Source of the DNA: Gammaproteobacteria bacterium
GTDB lineage: Bacteria > Pseudomonadota > Gammaproteobacteria > Enterobacterales > Kangiellaceae
NCBI GenBank assembly: GCA_013372875.1
Contig: JABXIW010000234.1
Coordinates: 1 to 57,559 of the forward strand
Direction of reading: 5' to 3'
DNA: 57,559 nucleotides
Part shown: in pieces, positions 26,566 through 30,557 of the stretch
Position numbering within the stretch: the first letter of the stretch is position 1
Layout of the letters: every line of letters starts with the position of its first letter
Position numbers and translations under genes: made by a program
Notes under the pieces: generated by a model
Database searches by the model: none
Told to the model about the DNA's origin: nothing
What the model saw: only the letters and a program-made list of their open reading frames with translations

Positions 26566-27093
26566 ATGGATAATCAGGCCTATCAGGCTCCTCAAGCAAA
26601 TCTTGATATAGAAATAGAAGAGCAATACCAATCTTATCAATACTTTAATTTAAGAGGCAGGATCAATCGATTAAAGTATTTGCAATTGGCTTATTTCTTG
26701 CCGACATTGTTATTCTTTGTATATTTGTTTGGCGTAGTTGCTGCATTATCCATTGTTAATCGAAATCCCACTTCTCAAGGCAAAGGGTTTTTAATGTTTT
26801 CCTATCTGAATTGGGGTTTGGTGGTGATTCTTGTGCTTGGCGTAATCAACGGATTGTGGCTCTCAGTACAACGCGCTCACGATATGGGATACAAAGGTGT
26901 TTGGGCGGTTTTGTGCTTATTGCCGTTAATTAATGCCGCTTTTTTAATTGTTCCACCTGAGGCTAAAGCTAATAACTATGGGCAGATGCCTGCTGAGAAC
27001 TCATTATTAGTCGCAATTACTGGCTGGTTAGGGCTGGCCGGAGTAGCACTATATTATTTATTATTCGCCATTTTGGTGAGTAATTTATTTTAA
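26566..27093 (+). CDS. DUF805-family membrane protein
   Basis: 175 residues. Tyr/Gln-rich N-terminus (NQAYQAPQANLD), then the DUF805 entry motif FNLRGRINRLKYL and four membrane spans, with the typical SVQRAHDMGYKGVWAVLCLLP between spans 2 and 3 and an NNYGQMP-type loop. Function unknown. Six bases after tadA; first of a tandem pair. Confidence 0.82.
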   Translation: MDNQAYQAPQANLDIEIEEQYQSYQYFNLRGRINRLKYLQLAYFLPTLLFFVYLFGVVAALSIVNRNPTSQGKGFLMFSYLNWGLVVILVLGVINGLWLSVQRAHDMGYKGVWAVLCLLPLINAAFLIVPPEAKANNYGQMPAENSLLVAITGWLGLAGVALYYLLFAILVSNLF

Positions 27094-27134
27094 CTTTCAA
27101 CACTTCAATACAACAATATATACAAGGGGATATT

Positions 27135-27704
27135 ATGGAAAACGTTTATCAAGCGCCAGAGAGCGATATTACAACTCATGACAATGACGCTACTCAGCCA
27201 GTAAAGTTATTTAATGCCAAGGGCCGTATGGGCCGTGTTCGTTATGTTGCTTATACAGTGGGGCTAACGTTATTAATCTATATGGCATTTCTATTAGTTG
27301 CGCTAGTTGCTGGCGCTTCCGTTGGAGCTGCTGGTGGCGGAGAAGGTCTGACTTCCGTTTTAGGGGGAGCGGGTATTATCCTTTTTGCTGCGTTTTATAT
27401 TTTTATTTTGGCGATAACAATTTGGGCAACTATCCAGCGCTGCCATGATTTCAATGTTTCGGGCTGGTTAACACTTTTACTGATTATTCCTTTTGCGGTG
27501 TTTGTTTTTTGGTTTGTGCCAGGCACCAAAGGTGAGAATAAATACGGTCTAAAGCCTGAGCCTAATAAAGCCATTCACTGGATCGGTGCGACTGTTGCAC
27601 CAATTTTGATGGTAGTGGGTATTTTAGCCGCAATCGCCATTCCTGCTTATCAAGATTATGTTGAAAGAGCGAAATCAGCTCAAACGCAATCATACGACGG
27701 CTAA
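27135..27704 (+). CDS. DUF805-family membrane protein with pilin-like tail
   Basis: 189 residues, paralogue of the preceding gene: shared N-terminal YQAPESD, FNAKGRMGRVRYV, TIQRCHDFNVSGWL and ENKYGLKPEP. After the DUF805 part, the last 25 or so residues read VVGILAAIAIPAYQDYVERAK, which is the alpha-1 helix of a type IV pilin without the preceding prepilin peptidase site. A terminator follows 19 bases after the stop. Confidence 0.82.
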   Translation: MENVYQAPESDITTHDNDATQPVKLFNAKGRMGRVRYVAYTVGLTLLIYMAFLLVALVAGASVGAAGGGEGLTSVLGGAGIILFAAFYIFILAITIWATIQRCHDFNVSGWLTLLLIIPFAVFVFWFVPGTKGENKYGLKPEPNKAIHWIGATVAPILMVVGILAAIAIPAYQDYVERAKSAQTQSYDG

Positions 27705-27787: not shown

Positions 27788-27815
27788 TTGACATAAGAAG
27801 CTAATTAACTAGACT
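27788..27815 (+). promoter_or_regulatory. candidate promoter of the lysine leader
   Basis: Consensus -35 TTGACA (27788-27793), 16-base spacer, -10 TAGACT (27810-27815). Counting seven bases places the start at about 27822, which is the A of the leader ATG; the leader ORF would then be translated from a leaderless message. The true start site could differ by a few bases. Confidence 0.5.
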
Positions 27816-27821
27816 GAGGCT

Positions 27822-27899
27822 ATGAATTTACCAGTTTGCACTAAAGCCCTAACCAAGAAAGCTTTGAAAAAGAAGGCTATGGCGTATTGTTGCGGGTAA
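27822..27899 (+). CDS. Lys-rich leader peptide (putative lysine attenuator)
   Basis: 25-codon ORF whose middle reads TKALTKKALKKKAM: six Lys codons, five of them in codons 12-18, including a KKK run. It ends CCG-stop. The stop lies 25 bases before a strong terminator, with the lysine biosynthesis gene directly after. This is the layout of his, thr and trp leader peptides. TGAGG precedes the ATG by only two bases, so initiation is unusual. Confidence 0.65.
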   Translation: MNLPVCTKALTKKALKKKAMAYCCG

Positions 27900-27949
27900 A
27901 TAATTTAATTATAAATAGTTACTAAAGCCCGCATTTTGCGGGCTTTTTT
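27826..27949 (+). promoter_or_regulatory. attenuator: alternative hairpins 1:2, 2:3, 3:4
   Basis: Segment 1 ATTTACC (27826-27832) can pair with GGTAAAT (27895-27901). Segment 2 TGCGGG (27891-27896, overlapping the leader stop region) can pair with CCCGCA (27928-27933), with a small ATTTA/TAAAT hairpin (27903-27916) between. Segment 3:4 is the terminator. ACTAAAGCCC occurs twice, at 27840-27849 inside the leader and at 27921-27930 in the terminator arm. A ribosome waiting on the Lys codons would leave segment 2 free to block the terminator. Confidence 0.6.
27924..27949 (+). terminator. attenuator terminator before lysC-lysA fusion
   Basis: Ten-base perfect stem AAAGCCCGCA/TGCGGGCTTT (27924-27933 with 27937-27946), 3-base loop and T run, 22 bases before the ATG of the next gene. 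A terminator at this place makes sense only if read-through is controlled. Confidence 0.92.
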
Positions 27950-27971
27950 GTGGTTTAAAGAAAGGTGAAGT

Positions 27972-30557
27972 ATGACCAATGATACCCAATGGCAGTTATT
28001 GAAGTTCGGTGGCACCAGTGTTTCCAGTAGGGAAAACTGGCAAAATATATTGAATATAGTTAAACGAAAACTGCAAAAAGGGAAAAAGGTTTTTATAGTC
28101 CACTCGGCTTTATCAGGAGTTTCTAACCAATTAGAAGCCTTAATTGAGCAAGCGCAAAGTGGAGACTTAGAGTCTTATCAGGCTGGCTATCAAGGGATTG
28201 TTGCTCAACATAAAAATTTGTTGAAAGCGCTATCGCTAGCTGAAAACTTGCTGGATCAGGATTATTTGCACTTAAAGCGCTTGCTTGATGGTGTGGCATT
28301 GTTAAAAGAAGCTAGTGATAGAGTTCGAGCTGTTATTTTAGCCCAAGGTGAATTGCTTTCAACACGCATAGGACAAGGTTTTTTACAGCATAACTTGGAG
28401 CTGCATCCTTACTGGTTGGACGCGAGACAATTTTTGGTGAGTCAAGATAGTGATGATAATTTCTTAGCGGCAAATTGCACCTACACTCAAGATAATGATT
28501 TATTGGATTTAATATCTGACTCTAAACTAGTTATTACTCAAGGTTTTATAGCTTCAAACCAAGAGCAAGAAACTGTGTTGACAGGGCGTGGTGGATCGGA
28601 TGCCTCGGCAGCTTACTTCTCCGCTAAGATTGATGCGGAAAGGCTTGAGATTTGGACCGATGTCGCTGGTATTTTTACTGCTAATCCAAATCAGGTACAT
28701 AATGCTCGACTGCTAAAGCAGCTGGATTATAGTGAAGCGCAAGAAATGTCGTCAGCGGGGGCAAAAGTCTTACACCCAAGAGCTATTCGTCCCGCTAGAG
28801 ATTTTCAGATCCCAATCTATATCCGATCTACGATTAATCCTGAGTTAGATGGAACCAAGATTAGCAAGCAAGATACTAGCAAGGGTATCGTTAAGGCCAT
28901 TACAGCTAAAGAGGGAACAACTCTAATATCTATGGAAAGCCAGCGAATGTGGCAACAAGCAGGCTTTTTAGCTGATTTGTTTATCATATTTAAAAAGCAT
29001 CAAATATCCATCGACTTGGTTTCAACTTCTGAGACTAATGTTACGGTAACTTTGGATAGTTTGACTCAGGTGGTTTCGGAAAAGCAACTTGCAAAGTTGA
29101 GTCAAGAGCTGGCTGAAATATGCAGTGTTAAGGTAATACAAAATTGCTCAACAGTTTCTATAGTAGGTCAAGAAATAAGGGCAATCTTGCATAAAATGGC
29201 GTCAGCGCTCAGTATTTTTGAAACTTATCCTGTCTATCTGCTATCGCAGGCTGCCTCAGATTTAAATTTAACATTTGTCCTGGAGCAAGAGCATCAAGAC
29301 AAGGTGATCGCCGCCTTGCATGAAATTTTAATCAGTAACAACCCTAATAGTGCGATTCTAGGTCCAACGGTTGCTGAACTGGAAGATACCCAAGCTGAAG
29401 TAGAAAAAAAATGGTGGCAACAAAACTCCAAAGCTATCCAAGCGTTATGCGAAGAGGAGCAAAATGCCTACGTTTATAGCTTAGAGCGAGTTAAGGAAAA
29501 TGCTGGACAATTAAAAACGCTCGACCAAGTGAGCAAAATATTTTTCGCGGTAAAAGCCAACAATAACCCAGAAGTGCTGAAAACTATTTACCAGCAAGGC
29601 TTAGGCTTTGAGGCGGTCTCATTATCTGAAATTGAACTACTCTTAAAGCTATTCCCTGAAATATCAAAAGAACGAATATTCTTTACTCCTAATTTTGCAA
29701 GTAAAGAGGAATACCAAGCTGCGATTGATTTTGGTGTTTGCTTATCGCTTGATAGCAACTATCCTTTATTACATTGGCCAGATATATTTGAGAATCAAAA
29801 AATATTTTTAAGAATTGATCCTAATGTTGGCAAAGGCCATCATGAAAATGTACGTACCGCAGGAGCAACATCTAAGTTTGGGATCCCAATCTATGAATTA
29901 GCTTCAATTGACAAAATTATAATAGACAAAAACATCAAGGTTATTGGCCTACATACTCATGCTGGCAGCGGAATTTTAACGCCCCAGCATTGGGCGGAAC
30001 ATGCTCGATTATTAGTGAATATTGCTGGAAATTATTCAAATGTGCGCTATTTGAATCTCGGTGGTGGTCTTGGAATAAAGGAAAAAGATGGCCAGAACAG
30101 CTTGTCTCTAGCTGAAATGAATAATGCTCTGCGTGAAGTTAAAGAAGAATTTTCTCAGTACGATTTCTGGATTGAGCCTGGTCGATATTTGGTGGCCGAT
30201 GCAGGTGTTTTAGTTGCAAAAGTAACGCAGGTAAAGCAAAAGCAAAACTACTATTATGTCGGACTCAATACAGGCATGAATTCTCTTATGAGACCAGCGC
30301 TTTATGGCTCGTATCATCCTATAGTTAATCTAACTAAATTGAATTGTGAGAAAAATAAACTAGCGACTATTGTTGGGCCAATTTGTGAAAGTACTGATAA
30401 ATTGGGTATCGAAATTCCTTTTCCAGAAACAGAAGAAGGGGATTTGATATTAATTGAAAATGCTGGTGCTTATGGTTTTGTGATGAGCAATGAATATAAC
30501 CTACGAAAGCCAGCGCAAGAAGTTTGTCTTAATCAAAGATCTGATATTGATATTTGA
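27972..30557 (+). CDS. Bifunctional aspartate kinase / diaminopimelate decarboxylase
   Basis: 861-residue fusion of the first and last enzymes of lysine synthesis. N-terminal aspartokinase: LKFGGTSVSSRENW near residue 8, TGRGGSDASAAYFSAK near 205, WTDVAGIFTANP, then ACT regulatory domains (about 310-455). C-terminal PLP-dependent decarboxylase: Lys528 in FFAVKANNNPEV, glycine loop LNLGGGLGI, substrate Cys in GPICESTDKLG, and ENAGAYGF. Such fusions are known in Xanthomonadales and some other gammaproteobacteria. AAAGGTGAAG precedes the ATG. The 3' end overlaps a facing lipoprotein gene by 29 bases. Confidence 0.95.
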   Translation: MTNDTQWQLLKFGGTSVSSRENWQNILNIVKRKLQKGKKVFIVHSALSGVSNQLEALIEQAQSGDLESYQAGYQGIVAQHKNLLKALSLAENLLDQDYLHLKRLLDGVALLKEASDRVRAVILAQGELLSTRIGQGFLQHNLELHPYWLDARQFLVSQDSDDNFLAANCTYTQDNDLLDLISDSKLVITQGFIASNQEQETVLTGRGGSDASAAYFSAKIDAERLEIWTDVAGIFTANPNQVHNARLLKQLDYSEAQEMSSAGAKVLHPRAIRPARDFQIPIYIRSTINPELDGTKISKQDTSKGIVKAITAKEGTTLISMESQRMWQQAGFLADLFIIFKKHQISIDLVSTSETNVTVTLDSLTQVVSEKQLAKLSQELAEICSVKVIQNCSTVSIVGQEIRAILHKMASALSIFETYPVYLLSQAASDLNLTFVLEQEHQDKVIAALHEILISNNPNSAILGPTVAELEDTQAEVEKKWWQQNSKAIQALCEEEQNAYVYSLERVKENAGQLKTLDQVSKIFFAVKANNNPEVLKTIYQQGLGFEAVSLSEIELLLKLFPEISKERIFFTPNFASKEEYQAAIDFGVCLSLDSNYPLLHWPDIFENQKIFLRIDPNVGKGHHENVRTAGATSKFGIPIYELASIDKIIIDKNIKVIGLHTHAGSGILTPQHWAEHARLLVNIAGNYSNVRYLNLGGGLGIKEKDGQNSLSLAEMNNALREVKEEFSQYDFWIEPGRYLVADAGVLVAKVTQVKQKQNYYYVGLNTGMNSLMRPALYGSYHPIVNLTKLNCEKNKLATIVGPICESTDKLGIEIPFPETEEGDLILIENAGAYGFVMSNEYNLRKPAQEVCLNQRSDIDI

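Follow-up and report, generated by a model that had tools for sequence, protein, structure and literature searches.

The window, a stretch of 57,559 nucleotides on contig JABXIW010000234.1 of a gammaproteobacterium of the Kangiellaceae, carries a fused lysC-lysA gene whose product scores 1176.9 bits against NF006515 (bifunctional aspartate kinase/diaminopimelate decarboxylase; cut-off 802) and whose closest named counterparts, 63-66% identical, come from Kangiella. The gene is preceded by a short Lys-rich open reading frame (ORF) and an intrinsic terminator (Table 1). An earlier note on this DNA had described a 25-codon ORF with six Lys codons, five of them within codons 12-18, ahead of a lysC-lysA fusion, and both the sequence and NF006515 confirm that description; the Lys residues occupy codons 8, 12, 13, 16, 17 and 18. 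On the 5' side of the leader lie a cytidine-deaminase-family gene, which we take to be tadA, and then two tandem DUF805 genes (26566-27704), the second of which has a pilin-like C-terminal stretch (E 8.5e-4, a weak NCBIfam match); at L108, one of the related loci, the leader likewise follows a C-terminal end resembling it. On the 3' side of lysC-lysA, the opposite strand holds a small unassigned gene and a gene that is presumably valS, judging from its translation.

Table 1. Features of the lysC-lysA leader region, in window coordinates (A2, alignment of the window and 16 relatives; SD, Shine-Dalgarno).
Feature	Position	Strand	Support or remark
Promoter-like site: TTGACA (27788-27793), 16 nt, TAGACT (27810-27815)	27788-27815	+	10/12 matches; most relatives have a similar site, equally far from the leader ATG
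Leader ORF MNLPVCTKALTKKALKKKAMAYCCG, 25 codons, six Lys	27822-27899 (ATG to TAA)	+	Lys and coding-type substitutions conserved
Segment 1, ATTTACC, 5' arm of the window's outer 1:2 helix	27826-27832	+	sequence not conserved, equivalent helices are
Hairpin within Lys codons, AGCTTT (27860-27865) with AAGGCT (27873-27878)	27860-27878	+	covariation
Segment 2 over leader stop: TGCGGGT (27891-27897) pairs with segment 3; GGTAAAT (27895-27901) pairs with segment 1	27891-27901	+	
Segment 3, AAAGCCCGCA, common to antiterminator and terminator	27924-27933	+	
Intrinsic terminator 3:4, 10-bp stem; T run 27944-27949	27924-27946	+	kept in 17/17 A2 rows
Shine-Dalgarno-like AAGGTGA of lysC-lysA	27962-27968	+	anti-SD energy in the window -4.3 kcal/mol
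lysC-lysA fusion, aspartate kinase/diaminopimelate decarboxylase, gene presumed regulated	27972-30557	+	NF006515

Considered as a single sequence, the leader RNA of the window is unremarkable: its fold has a z-score of -1.52, with 20 of 200 shuffles equally good, and the part before segment 3 has a z-score of 0.21. Two promoter-like sites of this quality occur in the 901 bases scanned, and the window site is no evidence on its own because shuffles give about as many (1.6). At least six Lys codons arise in 0.1% of base shuffles of the window ORF. Among 826 candidate ORFs on the forward strand and 787 on the reverse strand (alternative starts counted separately), this is the sole ORF of 15-40 amino acids with at least six Lys and a G+C-rich hairpin plus T run within 90 nt, although the scan flatters the leader in that the hairpin pattern was fitted to the window's own terminator. 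Since the window RNA is statistically weak by itself, the case for an attenuator depends on its relatives.

Within the family, 25 of 40 genomes encode the fusion at E <= 1e-150, 19 at an identity of at least 60% and six at 44-48%, and the other 15 have no fusion at that threshold; in an order-level draw of 394 genomes searched at E <= 1e-240, 17 have a fusion 60-67% identical and four one 46-47% identical. All 19 Kangiella-type genomes whose fusion is at least 60% identical have, in the same position ahead of it, a Lys-containing leader ORF followed by a terminator, as exemplified by L097 (MNIQLIVKKHSKKALKKRALFCCG), L094 (MNINICNKAFAKKALKHKAMAWYCG), L108 (MNLSTCNKKRTKKVSKKDAKANYCG) and L096 (MTLSQAKKPIKKTLKKCVPWFCAW), all written here up to the stop. 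By the terms of the earlier note, relatives that keep the terminator without conserving the ORF or its Lys codons would have spoken against the proposal; in all 19 relatives the Lys leader is retained. No such leader precedes the fusion in the five examined of the six at 44-48% (L109, L110, L112, L176 and L177, 44-47%), nor does one at L111; L175, where the fusion match begins at residue 118, lies outside the leader count.

Alignment A2 holds 17 rows, the window and 16 relatives, with L082/L083, L101, L173 and L174 outside it. At L101 the leader runs across two contigs, and its halves were read separately (the other half is L206); because the 5' part is on another contig, L101 is also left out of the outer-helix and Lys-shuffle tests and the fold model. 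L173 and L174 are counted in the checks of leader presence, Lys number, promoter spacing and the hairpin only. A covariance model built from the 17 sequences matches 19 of the 40 family genomes at E <= 2.4e-13, exactly those with a fusion at least 60% identical; 16 of these 19 were training members, and the three genomes outside the training set match at 1.8e-16, 5.6e-19 and 6.0e-22. The best matches in the remaining 21 genomes have E values of 5.3e-4 upward.

Kangiella-type leaders contain three to eight Lys each; composition alone predicts 1.4-2.9. In 16 of the 17 rows the Lys count is reached by at most 4.3% of base shuffles, the exception being L093, which has three Lys in 29 codons (reached by 32% of shuffles) and four internal Met as well. 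The usual pattern of recurrence is KK..KK..KK. Six aligned codons have Lys as their most frequent residue (13-17 of 17 rows), with AAA and AAG interchanged, at three of these codons as 9:6, 8:8 and 14:3. Pairwise differences at codon positions 1, 2 and 3 number 18, 48 and 157 over 12 codons in a clade of ten, and 394, 463 and 771 over all 17 rows. This third-position excess, together with the conservation of Lys, indicates that the leader peptide is probably under selection. The residues between the Lys pairs vary (HS, HT, HN, LT, FA, PI, RT) while Lys stays. Recurrence is not confined to Lys: ALKK and a C-terminal CG come back, and CCG does so in many leaders; the C-terminal CG is also dictated by the RNA of segment 2.

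RNAalifold, run with no structure supplied, predicts the terminator, whose 10-bp stem is found as the earlier note had drawn it, and a hairpin internal to the ORF. This hairpin within the Lys codons, which the note had not named, is the best-supported helix of the leader: every one of the 85 cells of its five pairs is a standard pair, each of the five shows two to four pair types, with compensatory changes, and its covariation of 0.774 is reached by 0 of 500 shuffles (shuffled mean 0.398). Two of the five hairpin measures, double-change pairs and further pair types, are not above shuffles (242 and 293 of 500). The hairpin is kept in all three rows outside its definition (L101, L173 and L174), and L173 has a U-A pair at a position where it was unseen before. 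A longer 1:2 structure folds around it in the leaders. The previously proposed helix of ATTTACC with GGTAAAT is present in the window, and relatives form an equivalent outer helix from other bases, so that it is rejected as a conserved sequence; over the set, leaders pair better with their own outer-helix partners than they do after reassignment (0 of 20,000 as good), with the own partner ranking 14th of 17 in the window and 15th of 17 in L093. All 18 sequences compared allow segment 2, which overlaps the leader stop as previously described, to pair with segment 3, as do all 17 of those modelled. Taken singly, the 2:3 duplexes are equalled by 5-159 of 1000 shuffles; nor are own 2:3 partners generally better than foreign ones, a comparison that is uninformative with segment 3 nearly invariant. 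Of what had been expected from an alignment, the conservation of the Lys codons and the terminator is thus seen, while the 2:3 core hardly varies and leaves little room for a covariation test of compensatory changes.

The response of the leaders to ribosome position was modelled thermodynamically, on the assumption that the segments fold before segment 4 is made. A ribosome stalled on the first Lys codon was represented by barring pairing for everything up to 14 nt beyond the first base of that codon; in this state, and as long as segment 4 is absent, the antiterminator is predicted with a probability of 0.66-0.85 in all 17 leaders; with the ribosome at the stop it is 0-0.01 in 16 of them and 0.31 in the window, and the terminator reaches at least 0.97 once segment 4 is added. 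When no ribosome is present, the antiterminator stays below 0.5 in 12 of 17 and takes values of 0.85 in the window and 0.50-0.69 in L092, L093, L105 and L108, so that the model does not show 1:2 protection of segment 2 in these five. The outer helix has support over the set, but in the window it protects segment 2 poorly according to the model. A switch of at least 0.6 is obtained for 16 of 17 real leaders vs 48 of 1020 shuffled ones; the window reaches 0.55, equalled by 8 of 60 shuffles. In the model, the ribosome-position switch behaves as had been claimed in all 17 leaders, which supports the mechanism with the above corrections, and by the same model no member of this family, which is well supported, is weaker than the window.

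Comparison among the relatives finds the ORF, its Lys codons, the hairpin and the terminator conserved and no L-box, and a lysine-specific ribosome-mediated transcription attenuator is very probably the best explanation of the locus. Transcription is predicted to begin on the leader ATG or no more than two bases from it, which would let a ribosome load on the new 5' end at once. The nascent leader would fold into the 1:2 structure, with the covarying inner hairpin lying in the Lys codons, and this hairpin may pause RNA polymerase. In the modelled switch, ample charged Lys-tRNA would let the ribosome reach the stop and cover segment 2, the 3:4 terminator would form and lysC-lysA would go unread; scarce charged Lys-tRNA would stall the ribosome on the Lys codons, opening 1:2 and allowing segment 2 to pair with segment 3 and transcription to continue. 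Without translation, the model has 1:2 holding segment 2 in most relatives and not in the window. We infer the leaderless start, the pausing and the response to lysine.

Kangiella-type Lys leaders are probably leaderless, as the spacing of their promoter-like sites suggests. The best -10-like hexamer ends 6-8 nt before the ATG in 19 of 20 leaders, being a poor AAGTAT in L094 and L095; in the exception, L096, TTGACA/TAGACT ends 33 nt before the ATG (read by eye, having been missed within the 60-nt scan). Of the 20 leaders, 15 have an anti-Shine-Dalgarno energy of 0.0 and 17 one no stronger than -1.0 kcal/mol. The exceptions are L108 (-3.2), L095 (-3.8) and the window (-5.6 kcal/mol), and the GAGG of the window leader would fall upstream of the predicted transcription start. 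The mean energy is -0.9 over 22 leaders, L082 and L083 included, vs -6.3 over 18 lysC-lysA starts. A comparable arrangement is given in passages of PMC7298713 for the trpL attenuator leader of Sinorhizobium meliloti, whose 5' end begins at the ORF ATG; it differs in concerning tryptophan and an alphaproteobacterium.

Twelve weaker matches to the Lys covariance model were also retrieved (L198-L209), comprising nine Trp leaders (MKTLYVKNIWWWHVT and kin), two Ile/Val-rich leaders and the one L101 half, the Trp and Ile/Val peptides being partly read by eye. According to family scans, the Trp leader of L201 lies ~325 nt before a DAHP synthase gene, and the Ile/Val leaders precede ilvC (L200) and an acetolactate synthase gene (L205); the other Trp cases have a similar frame. 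Like the Lys leader, these place an ORF behind a promoter-like site and a terminator before a biosynthetic gene; they differ in their runs of Trp or Ile/Val and in scoring 35-43 bits with the Lys model vs 91-140 for Lys leaders. Their like layout implies that Kangiella-type genomes carry leaders of the classical attenuator type. Six of eight Trp leaders (L198, L199, L201-L203, L207-L209) have no clear Shine-Dalgarno sequence, and the ATG lies 6-7 nt after the -10 in seven of the eight scored; leaderless attenuator leaders may therefore be general in such genomes.

Like the his, thr, trp, leu, ilv and pheA attenuators of enterobacteria, the Lys leader has an ORF with many codons for the pathway product, 1:2, 2:3 and 3:4 pairings that exclude one another, a segment 2 located at the stop codon of the ORF and a terminator ahead of the first gene. 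It differs in the amino acid proposed to be sensed, in the hairpin inside the control codons and in its probably leaderless start. The Rfam leader families are rejected for the window as below their cut-offs (Trp 30.4 of 41, Leu 22.7 of 50, Phe 22.6 of 55 and Thr 16.2 of 55 bits), and these sub-cut-off matches arise mostly through the terminator.

Lysine control of lysC is usually credited to the lysine riboswitch (L-box). Such an element would govern the same enzyme step and can also act by termination, but it binds lysine directly, whereas the proposed Lys leader would read Lys-tRNA. The L-box (RF00168) is rejected here, with none in the window and none in the 40 family genomes at E <= 0.001, in a search whose control set of 14 genomes gave matches in four, including E. 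coli. No Rfam riboswitch is found in the window, where tRNA is the only Rfam match and the T-box gives none at the gathering score. A lysine riboswitch or other ligand-binding RNA, with the ORF incidental, would suit the common control of lysine genes by L-boxes, the presence of a covarying hairpin and the different conserved RNA that precedes the fusion in another clade; it is nevertheless very improbable in view of these searches, the substitutions at third codon positions and the finding of no large conserved unpaired core in A2. Even harder to credit is a constitutive terminator or ordinary small RNA gene whose Lys-rich ORF is a by-product of A-rich DNA. The statistical weakness of the window in isolation and the Lys expected from composition fit that idea; the ORF, the distance from promoter to ATG, the hairpin and the behaviour of the switch, all conserved among relatives, speak against it.

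The same RNA switch could also serve an arrest or translation-sensing peptide, in which stalling would come not from Lys-tRNA charging but from the peptide, free lysine or a general slow-down. Its RNA would look identical, and ALKK, the C-terminal CG and CCG do recur besides Lys. Yet the residues between the Lys pairs vary while Lys stays, the C-terminal CG is also forced by segment 2, and codon sensing is suggested by the Trp and Ilv leaders, which are laid out alike, so that an arrest peptide appears unlikely, and the lysine attenuator remains the preferred reading.

Passages of PMC1262725 assign lysine to the L-box and his, thr and phe to attenuators, and the L-box is reported for lysC of Shewanella (PMC2659441) and predicted for lysC1 of Vibrio natriegens (PMC12925634). 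The word lysine is absent from the main text of PMC2965389 and PMC1183508. A short ORF of S. meliloti, SEP5, with six Thr and three Lys codons, has been proposed as a possible leader peptide before a gene called aspartate dehydrogenase (PMC10117765); it differs from the Lys leader in being Thr-dominated and in not preceding lysC or lysA, and the relevant passages of that paper give no attenuator structure. Searches of the open-licence literature turned up no described lysine leader-peptide attenuator, and the phrases 'lysine leader peptide', 'lysine attenuator' and 'lysine-rich leader peptide' do not occur there. The main survey of proteobacterial attenuators is that of Vitreschak 2004; with the searches confined to open-licence papers, the novelty of a lysine attenuator is provisional.

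Beyond the Kangiella-type genomes, L082 (MKLIITLIKKHKPAKPVLELF) and L083 (MINIIKHKTKKPQPLNC), from a distant clade with fusions 50-51% identical, have a Lys leader and terminator of their own. Folded separately, their antiterminators at the leader stop reach -14.8 and -13.5 kcal/mol, and their Lys numbers are reached by 0.4% and 16% of shuffles, respectively. Both stand outside A2, the outer-helix test and the shuffled-switch test, and their fold-model values of 0.14 are uninterpretable, as the segment definitions do not fit them. The Lys leader region of L082 (1281-1387) matches RF00624 (Pseudomonas sRNA P9) at 30.2 bits, and identity with P9 is rejected at a cut-off of 43; P9 ends in the same kind of terminator, and it may therefore be no free sRNA but an attenuated leader. 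In Bacteroidota, Lys-rich ORFs followed by a terminator-like hairpin precede the fusion in Myroides odoratimimus L072 (MKKMFISIIKKGKKQYLRPTS, 6 Lys of 21) and in the Bacteroidia MAG L043 (MKNPYLCGNISFLRKKKIKN, 5 Lys of 20), both drawn from 35 upstream regions scanned, seven of which had a terminator-like hairpin. Tentatively, Lys leader attenuation may have arisen more than once before lysC-lysA (in Kangiellaceae, in L082/L083 and perhaps in Bacteroidota like L072 and L043), with a leaderless Kangiellaceae leader in which the Lys-codon hairpin would set a polymerase pause synchronising a 70S ribosome at the 5' end; this broader scenario is possible rather than probable.

A different conserved structured RNA, of ~180-190 nt plus a terminator, precedes lysC-lysA in another gammaproteobacterial group, as at L035 (4722-4908), and is found before 21 fusions in all (alignment A3: L035, L113, L118, L121, L125, L130, L133-L135, L143, L150, L151, L153, L155, L161, L164, L165, L167-L169 and L171). 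Of its 1005 cells, 95.7% are paired, covariation exceeds 500 of 500 shuffles, and one helix changes on both sides in all seven pairs. The RNA is spanned by an ORF (..KHIK.MARQRCVGASGNCTG, to the stop), but its differences do not fall at third codon positions; this ORF analysis excludes L089 and L002, which duplicate L113 and L125, and also L103/L107, where the pattern matched by chance. Rfam scans of two members and one sub-stretch gave no explanatory match at E <= 1. This RNA is a candidate new riboswitch-like element.

If true, the lysine attenuator would extend the list of amino acids known to be controlled by attenuation and would show what substitutes for the L-box in lineages without one, with a control element that reads the charging of Lys-tRNA and not free lysine. 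Moreover, a covarying helix placed in the control codons of a probably leaderless ORF would offer a test case for the synchronisation of transcription and translation.
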